A DNA stretch of 64,000 bases. Source: Oscillatoriales cyanobacterium RM2_1_1. GTDB taxonomy: Bacteria; Cyanobacteriota; Cyanobacteriia; Cyanobacteriales; Microcoleaceae. Of this stretch, positions 41,507 to 48,963 are shown piece by piece. A model generated the notes under the pieces. It did not search any database, had not been told where the DNA came from, and saw only the letters and a list, made by a program, of their open reading frames with translations. The DNA lies in assembly GCA_012033335.1 (NCBI GenBank), contig JAAURB010000001.1, positions 1 to 64,000 of the forward strand. Reading direction: 5' to 3'. Position numbers and translations under genes: made by a program. How positions within the stretch are numbered: the stretch's first letter is position 1; every line of letters starts with the position of its first letter.

Positions 41507-42046
41507 CTAATCTAGCCGCTTCTCCAGATATTGCCCAATCATTTGCTGCTCACCCGCTCTGGAAATAATGGACTGGCGAGTGCGATACTTTTGACCAATG
41601 TGCTTAATTTCTTCTTCAAACACAGAATCATTGTACTCGGTTCTCAAGCAAAGTGTATTGGGATCAGAGAGGTAATACTCAGCTATAACGGGTTTGGGGG
41701 TGGCGAAACCGCGATCGCGGTACAGGCTTTGACCCAGGACACCAAATACAGTGGATCCCCTGGACTGACGATGACCGGAGATAGAGTCATGACTTTCCCA
41801 GGTGACTTCAGATCCACACCGAAGAGCTCTCAGATCTTCCATATTATGTTTTTCAGCTAATTTCACCAGTTCAGCACAGCCTTGGATTAAAAATCGAACC
41901 GTGAGACGACTAACCATTTCCTGAGTTTTGCCCTCGGGTAGGGTATAGTAACGCCGCTCGGAGCGCCAGATTCCCGTTGACTGTTGGAAAAAGTTAGCAG
42001 CAAGGTCAGTTGCGTTGAGATCAGTCGATTGAGCAAGCTGGGTCAT
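41507..42046 (-). CDS. Phycobiliprotein lyase, CpcS/CpeS family
   Basis: A 179-residue lipocalin-like bilin lyase that attaches bilins to phycobiliprotein cysteines. Family motifs are FFQQSTGIWRSERRYYTLPEG near residues 19-39, CGSEVTWESHD near 77, TVFGVLGQSLYRDRGFATPKPVIAEYYL (glycine-rich barrel strands) and LRTEYNDSVFEEEI. The length and RSERRYYT version suggest a CpcS/CpcU-type protein, but I will not choose a single symbol. It lies alone on the minus strand downstream of a gene-poor region. Confidence 0.83.
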   Translation of the reverse strand: MTQLAQSTDLNATDLAANFFQQSTGIWRSERRYYTLPEGKTQEMVSRLTVRFLIQGCAELVKLAEKHNMEDLRALRCGSEVTWESHDSISGHRQSRGSTVFGVLGQSLYRDRGFATPKPVIAEYYLSDPNTLCLRTEYNDSVFEEEIKHIGQKYRTRQSIISRAGEQQMIGQYLEKRLD

Positions 42047-42535
42047 TTGGAAAAATCCTCATTGTATTTGAACAAAGCTACGGGTTTCTCCCGATCAAGT
42101 AACCCCCAAGTCTAAAAAAAGAGCTGAGTTTTACCCGGAAGCTGAATCTCATTATCCTGGGACTCCCCTGATACCAATCATAAAGTTCTCTTTGTCAAGT
42201 TATAGTTATAATTTGTTACGTTAACCCATCATAGCGATACATCCTGGAGATTGACAACCAGATTGGCTTTTGACAGTAGATAATTTGCCCGCCAGTCTAA
42301 TTGACTGGTAGACAAGCAGAATAGGGGCAAAATTTAGCAGGAACAGTTGCTCTTGCTACAAACCCAACAGGCAATATTTACATCAATACATATCAATACT
42401 TTGGCTCAGCATGGCTTACCATCCAGGGTCGTCCACCTTGATGACTTTGATGGCGGGGTGGATCTAGTTCGCGATCGCGCTTCACCCGTTGGGGCTCTTT
42501 CACTTCTTGCTGATTCAATCGGATACAACCTGAGT
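42047..42535. other. Gene-poor 489-bp region (part of a 1.1-kb scar)
   Basis: Upstream of the phycobiliprotein lyase gene. A weak plus-strand frame (42347-42580) overlaps the remnant on the other strand and is not convincing. The lyase promoter should be near 42050-42200. There is no repeat. Confidence 0.4.
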
Positions 42536-42736
42536 TTAAATTCTAAAACCATATTTCTTCAAATACTCAATCGCATTTAGACAGGCTCGACGGTAAACAA
42601 CATGAGCATTTAGATAATATTGTTCTCCAGAAAATTCATCAACAGAGAACCCCTGAACGGATTCAGCGGGGCTTTGATCAGGTGCGGCAGCTTTTGCAAT
42701 CGACGTTGCTCGAGGCAGGCGATTGAGGATATTGAT
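42536..42736 (-). pseudogene. Acetamidase/formamidase-like fragment
   Basis: A minus-strand frame bounded by stops, without a start codon, reads INILNRLPRATSIAKAAA then SVQGFSVDEFSGEQYYLNA and VVYRRACLNAIEYLKKYGF before stopping. The last segment closely resembles the conserved stretch of FmdA-type acetamidase/formamidase (SVDE..., YLDA, YRxACLNAIEYL.KFGY), where the protein should continue for another ~60 residues. The remainder is not found on either side. It is therefore a decayed internal fragment. Recognition is from memory of the family motif. Confidence 0.5.
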
Positions 42737-43183
42737 TCAGAGGATGTCTAAAGCGTCGGATTTGTCCCCGATGGCTTAGGCGGCGTGGCTTAAAACTTCT
42801 ACATTTTTGTTGTGAGTTCAGCTTGCCTTCACACCTAATACCTTTTCTAAACACCCTATCAGAATGTCGATGCAAACATTACATAAAGTTCCCCAATAAA
42901 ACTCCAACTTGTAGTCCACAACACTTTTTAAAATTCCCAGGTTGTTTTTAATCAAATAGAACATTCTATTTGTAGAATTGCTCCAGCATTTATGCAGAGT
43001 ATCCTATGTAGAGTGGTTCATTTCTAACCTTTTGGGACGGTGAATTTTCAGTGGGGTTGAAGCCGCTTTCAGCCCCTTTTTATAAATAACTGATACCCAT
43101 CTGCTTGATCAAGCGTTTATAAAAAGTTTCAAAAATTTTATAGAAAGTTTGTCAAAAGTTTCCCAAAAGTCTATAAAAACTCG
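42737..43183. other. Gene-free AT-rich region with reiterated 3' flank
   Basis: Right half of the scar. 43115-43200 is AT-rich with recurring AAAAGTTT(C/G) and TATA(G/A)AAA motifs just after the ArsH-phosphatase gene. A plus-strand terminator-like hairpin is at 43053-43081. A minus-strand 65-codon frame (42678-42875) lacks any family similarity. Confidence 0.4.
43053..43081 (+). terminator. Orphan terminator-like hairpin
   Basis: GGGGTTGAA / TTCAGCCCC stem (one G-T pair, 6-nt loop) is followed by TTTTT on the plus strand. There is no intact plus-strand gene upstream within 2.9 kb, so it probably belonged to a lost gene. Confidence 0.55.
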
Positions 43184-44425
43184 TTAAAAGCTTTTGAATT
43201 CTTTACATTTGAGATAATCTTCAAGGTTGAATGCCTTCAGGATATGGGCAGCTCGATTCCTAAATTCTTCTTGCTGAGCCAACCCTTTCAAAAAAGCAAT
43301 TTGAGCATCCCGCAGTTCGACCTGAGGGTTAGCAGCTAGGACTTTTTGGACTGCTGTTTCGTAGGATTCCCCGACATGAATTAACACTGCTGCAATAGCG
43401 GTTCCGGTGCGCCGTCGTCCTGTACTGCAATGAATAGCAACGCCTTTGCCCGCAGCTACTTGAGTCTGAATAAAACCCTGCAATTGCTGAACTTGTTCTA
43501 AACTTGGGGCCGTTCCTCCCGTAATTGGAACCCAGAGATGGGGGAGTTGGGCTTGTTGGTAAATATCCAGATTAGAAGGGTCATCCATGACGGAGACAAT
43601 TGCCCCAATTCCTGATGCTTTTAATTCAGAAATTTCCTCAAGGGTAGGCTGACGAACTCCAGCCAATTGACCGGGAATCACCCACCAGAGATTTTCATGA
43701 ATCGGTTGGGGATTATGGGGTTCTGTTTGTAGTGTCATTTTTAATTTATTCTTTATTAATTTATTCTTTTTAATTTGATTTTTCAGGGCAGTTTGAGCCA
43801 CTTGAATCACCGGTTGATTGGTTTTTTCCTGGCGTTCGCTATGGCGATCTGTTAAATAATCAACCTGATTTCTTAACAGCATAGTAAATTTATACAACTC
43901 CTCCATCACGTCAATCAGGCGATCGCGGTAAGGTGAGTCTTTCATCGTGCCATCTTCATGAAACTCTTGATAAGCTTTGGCAACGGAAGACTGATTGGGA
44001 ATGGTAAACATCCGCATCCAACGGCCCAGGACTCGCATGGTGTTCACGGTATTAAACGACTGGGAGCCTCCACTGACCTGCATCAATGCCAGGGTTTTTC
44101 CTTGAGTCGGTCGGATTGCCCCAATACCGAGAGGAATCCAGTCAATTTGATTTTTGAGAATGCCGGTCATATTGCCGTGCATTTCCGGGGAAGACCAGAC
44201 CTGTCCCTCTGACCATTGGACAAGTTCCCGTAAAGCTTGAACTTGAGGATGGGATTCTTCAACTTGGCCTCGCAGGGGCAAATGATGGGGATGAAAAAAC
44301 CGGACTTCTGCCCCCATTTCAGCAATAATCCGGGCAGCTTCCTCCGCGAGTAGACGACTGTAGGATCGCTCCCGCAAAGAACCATACAAAAACAAAATTC
44401 TGGGAGGATGTTGAAATTGGATCAT
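43184..44425 (-). CDS. ArsH-type flavin reductase fused to a dual-specificity/tyrosine phosphatase domain
   Basis: A 413-residue fusion. Residues 1-200 are Ars[79 protein letters not shown]. ArsH is an NADPH:FMN oxidoreductase that detoxifies organoarsenicals and other oxidants. Residues ~201-229 are a Lys/Asn-rich linker encoded by a tandem 15-bp repeat (43741-43770). Residues ~240-385 are a phosphatase domain with [10 protein letters not shown] (Cys333, Arg339; HCxxGxxRT). The usual general-acid Asp in the preceding [10 protein letters not shown] loop is replaced. An internal Met230 could start a separate phosphatase. 14 bp downstream of the aquaporin gene, so cotranscribed. The phosphatase could act as an arsenate reductase (inference). 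Confidence 0.85.
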
Positions 44426-44439
44426 GGCCGTTTGAATAT

Positions 44440-45114
44440 TTATTTCACGTCTTGAAAGTTACAAGACAGGATTCGATAGACGATCACCGCCAATTGTGCC
44501 CCAACAATGGGGGCAATCCAATACACCCAATGGAAGTCCCAAGTGCCAGAAACCAGGGCTGGACCAAACGACCGGGCCGGATTCATACTTGCTCCTGTAA
44601 TCGGCCCCATAAAAGCCGCCTCTAACCCCACCGTTAGACCAATCGCCAATCCTGCAAAACCAGCAGGGGCGCGCCGATCCAAGCCTGATCCTAAAATCAC
44701 AAACATCAAAATAAATGTCAGGACAGTTTCCAGCACAAACGCCTGGGATCCGTTCCCATCTAGAGGGAGGGTGGCTCCCAAGTTCCCCACCGATCCGAGA
44801 GTCCCTAAAAGTAAGCCAGAAGCCAGAACAGCGCCCGTACATTGGGCAACAATATAGGGCAATACCTTAGAACGGGGAAAAAACCCCCCCAACCAGAAGG
44901 CTAGAGTCACCGCTGGATTGATGTGAGCCTGACTGATGTGTCCAGTGGCATAGATCAGCGCCGCAACTACAGCCCCAAACACGAAGCTGATTCCCAGATG
45001 GGTAATGCTGCCATCGGTTAACTGGTTCACCATAACCGCCCCCGTACCGGCAAATACCAGGATAAATGTACTAACTCCTTCAACCAGGGCCTCTCGCCAG
45101 CAATAAGTCATCAT
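44440..45114 (-). CDS. MIP-family aquaporin/glycerol facilitator, arsenic-operon type
   Basis: About 224 residues with six transmembrane segments and the two channel signatures [10 protein letters not shown] and [12 protein letters not shown]. The start [21 protein letters not shown] matches aquaporins of arsenic operons (AqpS-like) and generic cyanobacterial MIPs. The frame can be extended to 45273, but those 53 residues are hydrophilic and lack homology. CCAGGAG lies 10 nt before the tandem ATG ATG at 45114. Its operon with ArsH and the two ArsR-like operators upstream suggest it exports arsenite, as AqpS does in Sinorhizobium. Confidence 0.85.
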
Positions 45115-45309
45115 CGGCCAGAATCTCCTGGAAATATGACTCTGGCTGAGGGTGAGGTCTCGGCGCGGGGATACAGATTTATTGTGGAAACATTTATTGT
45201 TGAAGGATACCATGGCGATATGGATAGACTGTTCTGATGACTCTTTTTGGTGAACTTTATAATCAACCTCCAAGGGTCATTTATGGCCATTGAGTAACTA
45301 AACTGCTCA

Positions 45310-45327
45310 TATCAAAAAAAATTGATA
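45310..45327 (-). promoter_or_regulatory. Candidate ArsR/SmtB operator 1
   Basis: TATCAA-AAAAAA-TTGATA contains a perfect ATCAA-N6-TTGAT, the operator form described for the arsenic repressor ArsR of Synechocystis. It lies about 195 bp upstream of the aquaporin start. A possible -10 TAAGAT lies just upstream of it on the minus strand, which would place the operator near +10 to +30. Confidence 0.6.
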
Positions 45328-45370
45328 CGTTCTCATCTTAACTTCAAAATCTCTGATGCAGCAAGTATTA

Positions 45371-45386
45371 ATCAAGAAATCTTGTT
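45371..45386 (-). promoter_or_regulatory. Candidate ArsR/SmtB operator 2
   Basis: ATCAA-GAAATC-TTGTT differs from the ATCAA-N6-TTGAT form by one base and starts exactly 60 bp from operator 1. A possible -35 TTGCTG lies between the two sites on the minus strand. Paired operators fit cooperative repression. Confidence 0.5.
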
Positions 45387-45618
45387 ATGTCGGCTCGGAT
45401 CGAGAACCTGTATCCGTTATTCTGGAATATTTGTAGCTTTCGTTACCTTTAGAGTTGTTTCTGGTAATTTACGGGCTTGAAATGTAGCCGACCAGTTGGA
45501 ATAGATAGGGTTGGGTTGTTGGGGGATAACCCCTAATTTTTAGCTGATTGTTTAGGAGTATGGGGGCAAGAGGGTAACTCCACACTGATCATGTAAGTCA
45601 GATTGTTATGGTTCCTGC

Positions 45619-47192
45619 CTAACGATTCTCCAAATATCTTTTCAAGTCCGTAATCGAACTAATATTCAATCGTTCAGCATCCTCTTTTCTCATCATCAAG
45701 GCATAGGTATTATTAAAGCCAAAGGGTTCTAGCCAGCTCAGATCGTAGATCTTGTTTGACTGTTGGCGAACATAATCAAGAACCTGATCCTTGTCAGAAA
45801 TAATCGCTTTTTGGGTTTTCTCATCAGGCTTTAAAATCACCAAAAATCCCGTTCCCGTGTACTCCGGGTACAGATCGATTTCTCCCTTGATCAAGGCTTC
45901 AAACGCAATTTTGGTTCCGCCCAACCCTGTCTTTGATTCCACATTCAGGCCAGTATAATTTTCAATCAAAATTGTGATTAACTCCGCCAGAATATATTGC
46001 TCAGTGAATTTTTTCCCACCGATCAGAATATCAGGTTTGCCTTGACGGGCCGTTGAAGTTTTCAAGCCCAATTGCGTAAGAAAGGTTTGAGCCACCTGGT
46101 TGGGAGATTGTTGGAGTTGATCAACTGATAGTTCAGATCCGCCATTTCCTGGTCTGAAATTTTGCCCACCAGTTTTGCCAGAATCGGTTGAATTTCTGGA
46201 TATTTTCTCAGGGTTTGATTGCGAATTAGGGGAGCGGCATAGTAGGGCGGAAAGTAATTTTGATCATCTTTGAGAATGACTAAATCATAGGCTTGGATGC
46301 GTCCATCCGTAGAATCTCCACTGATTAAGTCTACTTTTTTCTCTTTCAATGCCTGGAAAGCTAGGCCCGATTCTAGCTCAACGGTGTCAAAGGCGGGCAA
46401 ATTGTAGCGAGTCACCAGACCCCGATAGCCATCCGCTCGCTCGACAAATTCTGCCGGGAATCCTGCTGTAAAGCCAGGACTGGAAAACACCACAGACATT
46501 ACAAACCACCCCGAAAGCACCACCAATCCCAAGGCCCCGATTAAGATTGGCTTGAATAGAGTCTGAATATTGTGTTGCAGTTTTCCCAGGAGAAAATCTA
46601 GTAACAACGCCAGTCCAGCGGCAGGAATGGCCCCAGCCAAAAGCATCTCAGGATTATTCAGGGAAATTCCCCGAAAAATGAATTCTCCTAATCCCCCCGC
46701 TGCCACCAGGGCACACAGGGTTGCCACCCCAACGGTAGTCACCGTAGCCGTGCGAATTCCAGCAAAGATCACCGGTACCGCTAGGGGCAACTCAATCTTG
46801 AACAACACCTGACCATCGGGCATCCCCAACCCTTTGGCGGCTTCCTTGACGGTCGGATTGACCCCATCTATGCCGGTAAATGTATTCTGGACAATGGGCA
46901 ACAGAGCATACAGAAATAGAGCCACAATCGCTGGAACCACCCCAATTCCCAGGACAGGCAATAAAAATCCCAACAGGGCGATACTGGGAATTGTTTGAAT
47001 GGCGCTGACAATCCCGATCACATTTCCAGACATTTGCCGATAGCGGGTCAGCCCAATTCCAATCACCAGGCCCACCAGAGTGGCCAGGGTCAGGGCCACC
47101 AGGGTCAACCCCAGATGTTCCAGGGTTTGGGTGGCAATTTCTTGACGATGGCTGACGAAAAATCCCCAAAGTGATCCGAGAAATTCACCCAT
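45619..47192 (-). pseudogene. OpuC/ProW-type ABC permease fused to a circularly permuted osmolyte-binding domain, frameshifted
   Basis: The first frame (47192 to 46062) has a binding-protein-dependent permease (about 1-212, with the GLGMPDGQVLFKIELPLAVPVIFAGI coupling loop). Directly after it comes the second half of a class-F betaine/choline-binding domain (FTAGFPAEFVERADGYRGLV, LISGDSTDGRIQAYDLVIL, YFPPYYAAPLIRN, MADLNYQ). The first half (ILIGGKKFTEQYILAELI, DLYPEYTGTGFLVILK, LSWLEPFGFNNTYALMMR) follows instead of preceding it, in a second frame (46095 to 45619). One base missing near 46125 (CAG-TT for CAGGTT) separates the frames. Rejoined, the protein is about 525 residues. It overlaps the ATPase gene by 8 bp. 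It imports osmoprotectants if functional. Confidence 0.82.
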
Positions 47193-48231
47193 GATTAGAG
47201 ACCTGACTCGATACTTTTGCCTTGAATTTATCCTGCTTGAAGTGATGAAATGCGGGTAACAACGCTTCCCAAGCAGTAATCAAGCAGTTTCCCTGGGCAT
47301 CGGTAATTCCGATCAGCGGTGATTGTCCAGGAGCCTGGGTTTTATTCTCGGGATTCTCTAGCACTTCTAGATTCTCTAGCACCTCCAACAAACTGGAAGT
47401 CCCTGGATAGTTGCGGATGGAAACGTCCTCAGCCTCTTGTACTGGCAGCCACGGGATCACGTCTTGCAATGGGGTGACTTTGAGCTCCAGTTGGAAGCGA
47501 TTGGCTTGAAAGAAACGGCGAACAAATTCATTTTGGGGCTCGAAGATCAATTCCTGGGGGGATCCCAATTGCTGGACAATGCCGCCATCCATCAAACATA
47601 GGCGATCGCACAATTCCACCGCTTCAAAGACATCGTGGGTCACCAACACCATGGTTTTATTCAGTAAACTTTCCAGATGCTTGAACTCCTGCTGAATTTC
47701 CCGTCGAGTAATCTGATCCAAAGCCCCAAAGGGTTCATCCAGTAGGATAATTGGCGGATCGGCAGCTAAGGCCCGGGCCAATCCTACCCGTTGCTGTTGG
47801 CCCCCGCTAAGCTCCTGGGGATGGCGCTGGGCAAACTGGTCGGGGTCAAGTTTGATCAACTGCATCAATTCCCTGATTCGGGCCTGAATTCGGGTCTCCT
47901 GCCATTTTAGCAACCGGGGAACCACGGCGATATTCTCCGCCACAGTGTAGTGGGGAAACAAGCCCGAATTCTGCACGACATAGCCAATTCCCTGGCGCAG
48001 ACGCTCCGGGGGCGGACGGCGAATATCTTCTCCCTGAATCAGAATATAACCGGCGGTGGGTTCCACCAGACGATTCAGCATTTTCAAGGTGGTAGTTTTG
48101 CCACAGCCGCTAGTACCAATCAGTCCAAAGGTCTCTCCCGGGGCAATCTGAAACGAAACGTTTTGAACAGCGGCGGTCTCTCCATAGGTTTTGGTCAGGG
48201 CGATCACTTCAATCATCGCTTCAATCATCAA
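47185..48231 (-). CDS. Osmoprotectant ABC transporter ATP-binding protein (OpuCA/ProV type)
   Basis: A 348-residue ATPase. Walker A is [10 protein letters not shown] near residue 37, the signature [15 protein letters not shown], Walker [13 protein letters not shown] and the switch His in LVTHDVFEA. The [21 protein letters not shown]-loop is typical of OpuCA. The C-terminal ~100 residues replace the usual CBS pair with a shorter, poorly conserved region and Leu/Glu repeats ([13 protein letters not shown]). The gene overlaps the permease gene by 8 bp, indicating translational coupling. MIEAMIEV at the start comes from a 12-bp duplication, so either Met may be used. Confidence 0.88.
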
Positions 48232-48702
48232 TCAAAAAAATAGTGACATCCTCCCGACTGTAAAGATGGTTTGCGCCTGGTCGCAAAGCTTGTGAGCCGT
48301 TTTCAGGTAAAAGTCTTCACGACGGTTCGCCATCCGATGGTGCATTCTGGCAACTTCGATTTGTGCCTTTTCCCAGTTTTGAGAACTCTTTTGTTTTCGT
48401 GCCGCTCTGCGTTGCAGCAATTTCAGCTTGGGTTGCACCGACTTGAAAAACTTGGGGCGCTCCTGAAAACTACCATCCGCAGCCGTCAAGAATCGATCCA
48501 ATCCCAGATCAATCCCAATTGCTCGACCCTGAACTGGGGCATTGGGAACCGACACATCCGATTCGATGGTGACAACCACATACCATTGAGTCTCCCGTAC
48601 TTTGGACAATACCCTGACCTGCTTCACTTTGAACCCCTCTGGGACAGGACGATACCGGTTGCTGGGCACTTCTCTAATCTTCGGCAGATCGACAAGTACC
48701 AA
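48232..48702 (-). pseudogene. TnpB (IS200/IS605 OrfB) fragment
   Basis: Central part of a TnpB RNA-guided nuclease. RuvC-I is IGIDLGLDRFLTAADG with its Asp, followed by the Lys/Arg-rich bridge (PKLKLLQRRAARKQKSSQNWEKA) and MHHRMANRREDFYLKTAHKLC. The N-terminal wedge/REC part is missing or altered. The protein stops right after DQAQTIF, where EDL (RuvC-II), the zinc finger and RuvC-III should follow. No TnpA is adjacent. It abuts the OpuCA-type gene by one base, so an insertion and deletion at this site separated that ATPase from whatever lay upstream. Confidence 0.85.
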
Positions 48703-48963
48703 GAGTCCATGTACCCCGACGCTGATGCTTCACATACAGCGCGGGACTTATAGCTCCCCGAACCCCTCATTAGTAAAATTTGGAACTAAAATCTGGAACT
48801 GTGATTCAGCTTTGTTGGCTTTGATCTCTATACTAGTCCGTAACTGGAGTGTGTTGATCCGATAAACTGATCAATCTGAATCTGATCAATCTGAATCGAG
48901 CAATCCGCAACCTGAAGCTTGATCACTCAGGCGACTACCACTGGCTAAGACGGGAAAAAAATT

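Follow-up and report, generated by a model that had tools for sequence, protein, structure and literature searches.

In Synechocystis sp. PCC 6803, the arsR gene is unlinked to the arsBHC operon that its product represses (PMC4010505). DNase I footprinting is reported to have located Synechocystis ArsR on ATCAA(N)6TTGAT repeats (PMC4585019, citing a 2003 paper), and ATCAA-N6-TTGAT has been named the ArsR core consensus (PMC9137774). In Sinorhizobium, ArsC makes arsenite, which exits via a channel (PMC6205960). The locus described here shares features with these systems. Like Synechocystis sp. PCC 6803 arsBHC, it has ATCAA-N6-TTGAT in two copies, an unlinked repressor gene and arsH in the controlled operon; unlike arsBHC, it has an aquaporin instead of Acr3 as the presumed export gene, arsC in a second operon and a degenerate -35 element. 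As with the ars operon of Sinorhizobium meliloti, where the aquaporin AqpS takes the place of ArsB, an aquaporin gene stands with arsH and neither ArsB nor Acr3 was found, arsC being in an operon on contig C78 alongside an aquaporin remnant; unlike in S. meliloti, the genes are spread over at least three loci, a phosphatase is fused to ArsH and the operator is of the cyanobacterial form. The locus also resembles cyanobacterial PstS-MIP-ArsH-ArsC operons (such as L067, L082 and L090), whose aquaporins are 73-79% identical to this one and which have the same box before the first gene. In those operons the genes are together, whereas MIP-arsH and pstS-arsC are apart here and only the remnant is left of an aquaporin at C78.

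We consider it highly probable that the two boxes upstream of the aquaporin gene are operators for the unlinked ArsR of this genome, which As(III) would release, that they are shared with pstS-arsC, and that the aquaporin serves as the exit. The features lie as follows in the window, the whole 64-kb stretch of DNA that was analysed.

45310 to 45327, no strand assigned: predicted proximal operator, an 18-bp perfect palindrome (TATCAA-AAAAAA-TTGATA) with the core ATCAAAAAAAATTGAT at 45311-45326
45371 to 45386, no strand assigned: predicted distal operator, ATCAAGAAATCTTGTT, with one mismatch; it reads AACAAGATTTCTTGAT on the minus strand
45306 to 45311, minus strand: TATGAG, a weak -10-like hexamer that starts at the final T of the proximal box, where relatives have TATRAT
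45335 to 45364, minus strand: promoter proposed in an earlier note, TTGCTG at 45364-45359, 18 nt, TAAGAT at 45340-45335
44440 to 45114, minus strand: aquaporin of the MIP family (PF00230, 204.8 bits), with AGGAG upstream of the ATG at 45114 or 45111
43820 to 44425, minus strand: ArsH domain, residues 1-202 (TIGR02690, 375.7 bits, cut-off 292.25; PF03358)
43730 to 43819, minus strand: fusion linker, A/T-rich low-complexity DNA and then an internal Met resembling the start of a free DSP
43184 to 43729, minus strand: DSP-type phosphatase domain (PF22785, 64 bits; PF22784, 51.6 bits) with an intact HCx5R loop

The earlier note, which was made from the letters of this DNA, had placed ATCAA-N6-TTGAT exactly at 45311-45326 and with one mismatch at 45371-45386, 60 bp apart, and the sequence bears this out in every detail. 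The distal box lies upstream of the proximal one, with a start-to-start spacing of 60 bp compared with 29 bp in Synechocystis salina, where two exact boxes stand directly before arsB of arsBHC. The proximal box is found about 200 bp upstream of the aquaporin start codon, which is likely the ATG at 45114 or 45111, where relatives start; the TTG listed as the start, at 45273, probably lies too far upstream. A search of 42000-48800 against Rfam gave no match, and the folding of the leader RNA, with z -2.1, is in part owed to the palindrome itself. Both boxes are almost certainly docking sites for ArsR.

Within the window alone, the bare pattern occurs no more often than chance allows. ATCAA-N6-TTGAT with at most one mismatch gave 6 matches in 64 kb against 3.87 expected, and 6 or more were reached in 21 of 100 shuffles of the window, so support must come from comparison. 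Genome-wide, where the earlier note had advised looking for further copies, 40 exact ones were counted (4 for the reversed control pattern); they include two before the pstS-arsC operon, and many are distant from ars genes. Both counts speak for taking the two matches as chance palindromes in A/T-rich intergenic DNA. We fetched 110 loci with ArsH relatives, mapped ArsH, DSP, MIP, PstS, ArsC, ArsR and Acr3 on them, and took as leader the 320 bp that precede an operon's first gene. The exact box was present in 50 of the 92 ArsH-operon leaders that were long enough, the window's own among them; dinucleotide shuffles of these leaders gave 0.09 (maximum 1), and the reversed pattern gave 0. Where an aquaporin is the first gene, 12 of 16 leaders had it. 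A scoring matrix of 36 columns was built from 89 distinct boxes in ars leaders of other species, with the window excluded. Scanned over the 64 kb, it put both sites on top: 45311(-) ranked first with 27.8 bits and 45371(-) second with 17.6 bits, the only other high score was that of the 45311 site on the opposite strand, and the next site reached 12.5 bits. With the same matrix, the boxes on C78 scored 31.7 and 30.8 bits; there the 16-mer of the proximal box stands twice before the pstS-arsC operon, which likewise speaks against chance. Leader enrichment and matrix ranking refute chance in practice, and we give this explanation hardly any credence.

The boxes of relatives have a recurrent setting. 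Of the 89 boxes, 47 have TTGACA, with one mismatch at most, ending just 1 nt ahead of them (other offsets, 0 to 3); in 39 a hexamer like TATAAT, with the same tolerance, starts at the final T of the box, and 27 show both elements. The proximal box of relatives thereby fills the -35/-10 spacer (TTGACA-box-TATRAT), a direct way of excluding RNA polymerase, and the comparison gives a sharper picture of the promoter in cyanobacterial ars operons by putting the operator within that spacer. In many leaders of relatives a further, distal box stands 53-54 bp upstream, and TAAT often comes next. The distal box in the window looks like these and also has TAAT after it, at a spacing of 60 bp. The position of the window's proximal box itself fits the spacer; the -35 place reads AGAACG, 4/6 mismatched to TTGACA, and the -10 place TATGAG, so the promoter of this operon would be weaker or shifted. 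In the earlier note, a -35/-10 pair between the two boxes had been held plausible. The hexamers TTGCTG and TAAGAT are indeed present, with 3/6 and 4/6 consensus matches, and form a possible but poor promoter. A consensus promoter scan did not return TTGCTG-N18-TAAGAT, the conserved arrangement of relatives is a different one, and the promoter probably does not lie between the boxes.

As that note had also stated, the 64-kb window holds no arsR, arsB/acr3 or arsC; arsR and arsC were found elsewhere in the genome. The ArsR/SmtB homologue on which the note had made its reading depend is encoded on contig C154, unlinked to the window (PF01022, 71 bits), and has the arsenite-binding Cys trio in ELCVCDLC as well as a C-terminal PCCD. 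ELCVCDLC recurs in most of the ArsR genes linked to such operons, and a Cys-trio ArsR is often linked to operons with such boxes across cyanobacteria. The sequence ATCAATTTTTTTTGAT accounts for 3 of the 40 exact genome boxes, namely the proximal box of the window and two on C78, which are 52 bp apart and stand directly before the gene for a PstS-type protein. Behind this pstS gene lies the single C78-type ArsC of the genome (TIGR02689, 201.8 bits). Between the two genes is the aquaporin remnant (L019:1917-2020), in which 18 of 32 residues are identical (E 5e-8) and stop codons occur; it suggests that the channel was lost from an ancestral pstS-aquaporin-(arsH)-arsC operon. In another genome (G090, L138), MIP, ArsC, ArsH, DSP, ArsR and PstS are encoded in one cluster, and here they are scattered over three contigs. 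One operator sequence would tie together this scattered arsenic regulon of arsR, pstS-arsC and aquaporin-arsH. The link that the earlier note drew from the aquaporin and the ArsH-phosphatase to arsenite sensing is supported by the conservation of the operator, by the Cys-trio ArsR and by the sharing of the box with arsC.

Boxes were seen near other genes as well. A glycosyltransferase gene, a possible further ArsR target, has a box of 29 bits (L135:6406-6421; C88:22405) at a distance of 172 bp on its upstream side. An exact A/T-core box of 23 bits (L136:4287-4302; C102:7286) lies about 270 bp upstream of a gene for an arsM-like methyltransferase. In 29 relatives arsM was found to have no exact box upstream, and the repeats are missing at the Synechocystis arsM gene (PMC4585019); as a conserved arsM operator the C102 box was rejected, and it is kept as a lead.

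Several features run against the operator reading, since TTGACA is missing at the window's proximal box, the spacing is 60 bp against 53-54 bp in relatives, and no box was found near the arsR gene itself. It is conceivable, though improbable, that the boxes are ArsR sites by descent, that the promoter has decayed and that the operon is weak or no longer arsenite-responsive. AGAACG in place of TTGACA, TATGAG as the -10 element and the one mismatch in the distal box fit such a decay, and the aquaporin remnant in the sister operon on C78 may be read as a sign of regulon erosion. On the other hand, both ORFs are intact, the 18-bp palindrome is perfect and scores 27.8 bits, and an alternative -35/-10 pair is available between the boxes. 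Still far less probable is binding of the boxes by another ArsR/SmtB protein in response to Zn/Cd or some other signal. A second metalloregulator is present in the genome, an SmtB/ZiaR-like protein (L002) on C88 without the Cys trio; however, SmtB-type operators have a form different from ATCAA-N6-TTGAT, and ars genes across cyanobacteria have the box in front of them, in many cases together with a linked Cys-trio ArsR. The window's pattern is moreover the one reported as footprinted for Synechocystis ArsR (PMC4585019), and the operator form was correctly named by the earlier note.

With the boxes as operators for the unlinked ArsR, the switch would work in the following way. In the absence of arsenite, ArsR dimers would occupy the proximal box, which shares DNA with the aquaporin-arsH core promoter, as well as the auxiliary distal box, and would keep the operon silent. 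Once As(III) or Sb(III) is bound to the ELCVCDLC cysteines, ArsR would be released, and the aquaporin-arsH operon would be made together with the pstS-arsC operon, before which the same box stands twice on C78. ArsC would then reduce arsenate, and arsenite would leave down its gradient via the aquaporin. The substrates of ArsH would be trivalent organoarsenicals, or the enzyme would serve as a quinone/flavin reductase, and arsenate reduction is a candidate role of the DSP domain. ArsR binding, the transcription start and induction are what we infer in this scheme.

The genome has no known arsenite pump in its assembly. Acr3 was found neither by protein query nor with TIGR00832 in this draft of 178 contigs, in which an unassembled acr3 is possible, and a family search of the same draft found no ArsB; the Acr3 and ArsB family searches gave matches in control genomes. 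Because neither Acr3 nor ArsB was found, the window's aquaporin is likely the arsenite exit, as in Sinorhizobium, and would conduct arsenite. This MIP channel is encoded with arsH and has the predicted ArsR operator upstream, as neighbourhood and operator sequence indicate, with ArsR presumed to bind there. There are two aquaporins in the genome, which are 39% identical: that of the window has the filter F-A-A-R, and an AqpZ-like one has F-H-T-R. By alignment, the ar/R filter of the former is the wider and more open one, and the ars-linked aquaporins of other cyanobacteria share F-A-A-R almost without exception. The best matches among solved structures were archaeal AqpM and rice NIP2-1 (Lsi1), the latter a silicic acid and arsenite channel. 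The ar/R filter is G-S-G-R in Lsi1 and F-I-S-R in AqpM, but F-A-A-R here. The organism, with no recognisable arsenite pump in its genome, is a candidate for passive arsenite export via an aquaporin. In similar ars operons (L072:936-1589, L119:3236-3889) a second type of aquaporin was observed, 39% identical and with the filter S-V-G-R, apparently an independent recruitment.

Starting 14 bp past the aquaporin stop, the ORF at 43184-44425(-) encodes 413 residues, with ArsH followed by the DSP-type phosphatase domain. At the place of the linker, relatives have a stop codon and a separate DSP gene. No second case of ArsH-DSP in one ORF was found among the fetched loci, in which the genes are separate where adjacent (L022 included), and elsewhere in the class sample a match spanning both parts came from G090 and G175 alone, which have two ORFs each. 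The fusion as a recurrent protein type was rejected, the same architecture being found in no other genome sampled. The A/T-rich linker precedes what appears to be the original DSP start, so stop-loss or an assembly indel error would explain the fusion. The compact three-activity module of the earlier note depends on this fusion, which is unique among the sampled genomes, whereas cyanobacteria commonly have ArsH next to an aquaporin or next to DSP.

The phosphatase domain is like DSP/PTP-type phosphatases (PF22785, PF22784) in its HCx5R loop with invariant catalytic Cys and Arg, and unlike others of them this subfamily adjoins ArsH/ArsC/Acr3 in cyanobacteria. Among 35 DSP homologues, H332, C333, G336 and R339 are invariant, D282 is kept in 34 and the catalytic Cys is the sole conserved Cys. 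DSP genes at least 50% identical were found in 33 examined loci, and 34 of the 35 copies lie at most 700 bp from a same-strand ars gene, both in a set biased by a query that contained the DSP domain. Seven ArsH-DSP genomes (G012, G018, G019, G023 and those of L091, L105 and L121) have no C78-type ArsC match anywhere; in most of them PF03960 matches weakly, to a protein that could be an arsenate reductase but need not be one. As an arsenate reductase, DSP is a candidate lead. Among additional genes of ars operons, the available part of the review PMC4284471 gives those for PstS, Gap3, a glyoxalase and an MFS transporter and does not name a phosphatase, and a literature search on ArsH with dual specificity phosphatase found no paper. 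We propose, tentatively and with considerable doubt, that this DSP subfamily recurs in cyanobacterial ArsR-controlled operons, is apparently undescribed, and either reduces arsenate or acts on a different arsenic or phosphate ester, replacing ArsC in some species. If true, the fusion would combine arsenate reduction with the redox chemistry of organoarsenicals in a single polypeptide, next to a channel for arsenite. The operator switch itself is of a known kind, and the phosphatase family is the new lead for arsenic chemistry.

At 45619-47192(-), the window encodes a glycine-betaine type ABC permease fused to a binding domain whose two halves are in swapped order. This gene is in two ORFs in different frames, which overlap at 46062-46095; the split looks like a frameshift, by gene decay or sequencing error. 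A fragment of an IS605-type OrfB transposase (PF01385, 71 bits) at 48232-48702(-) adjoins the ABC transporter genes.
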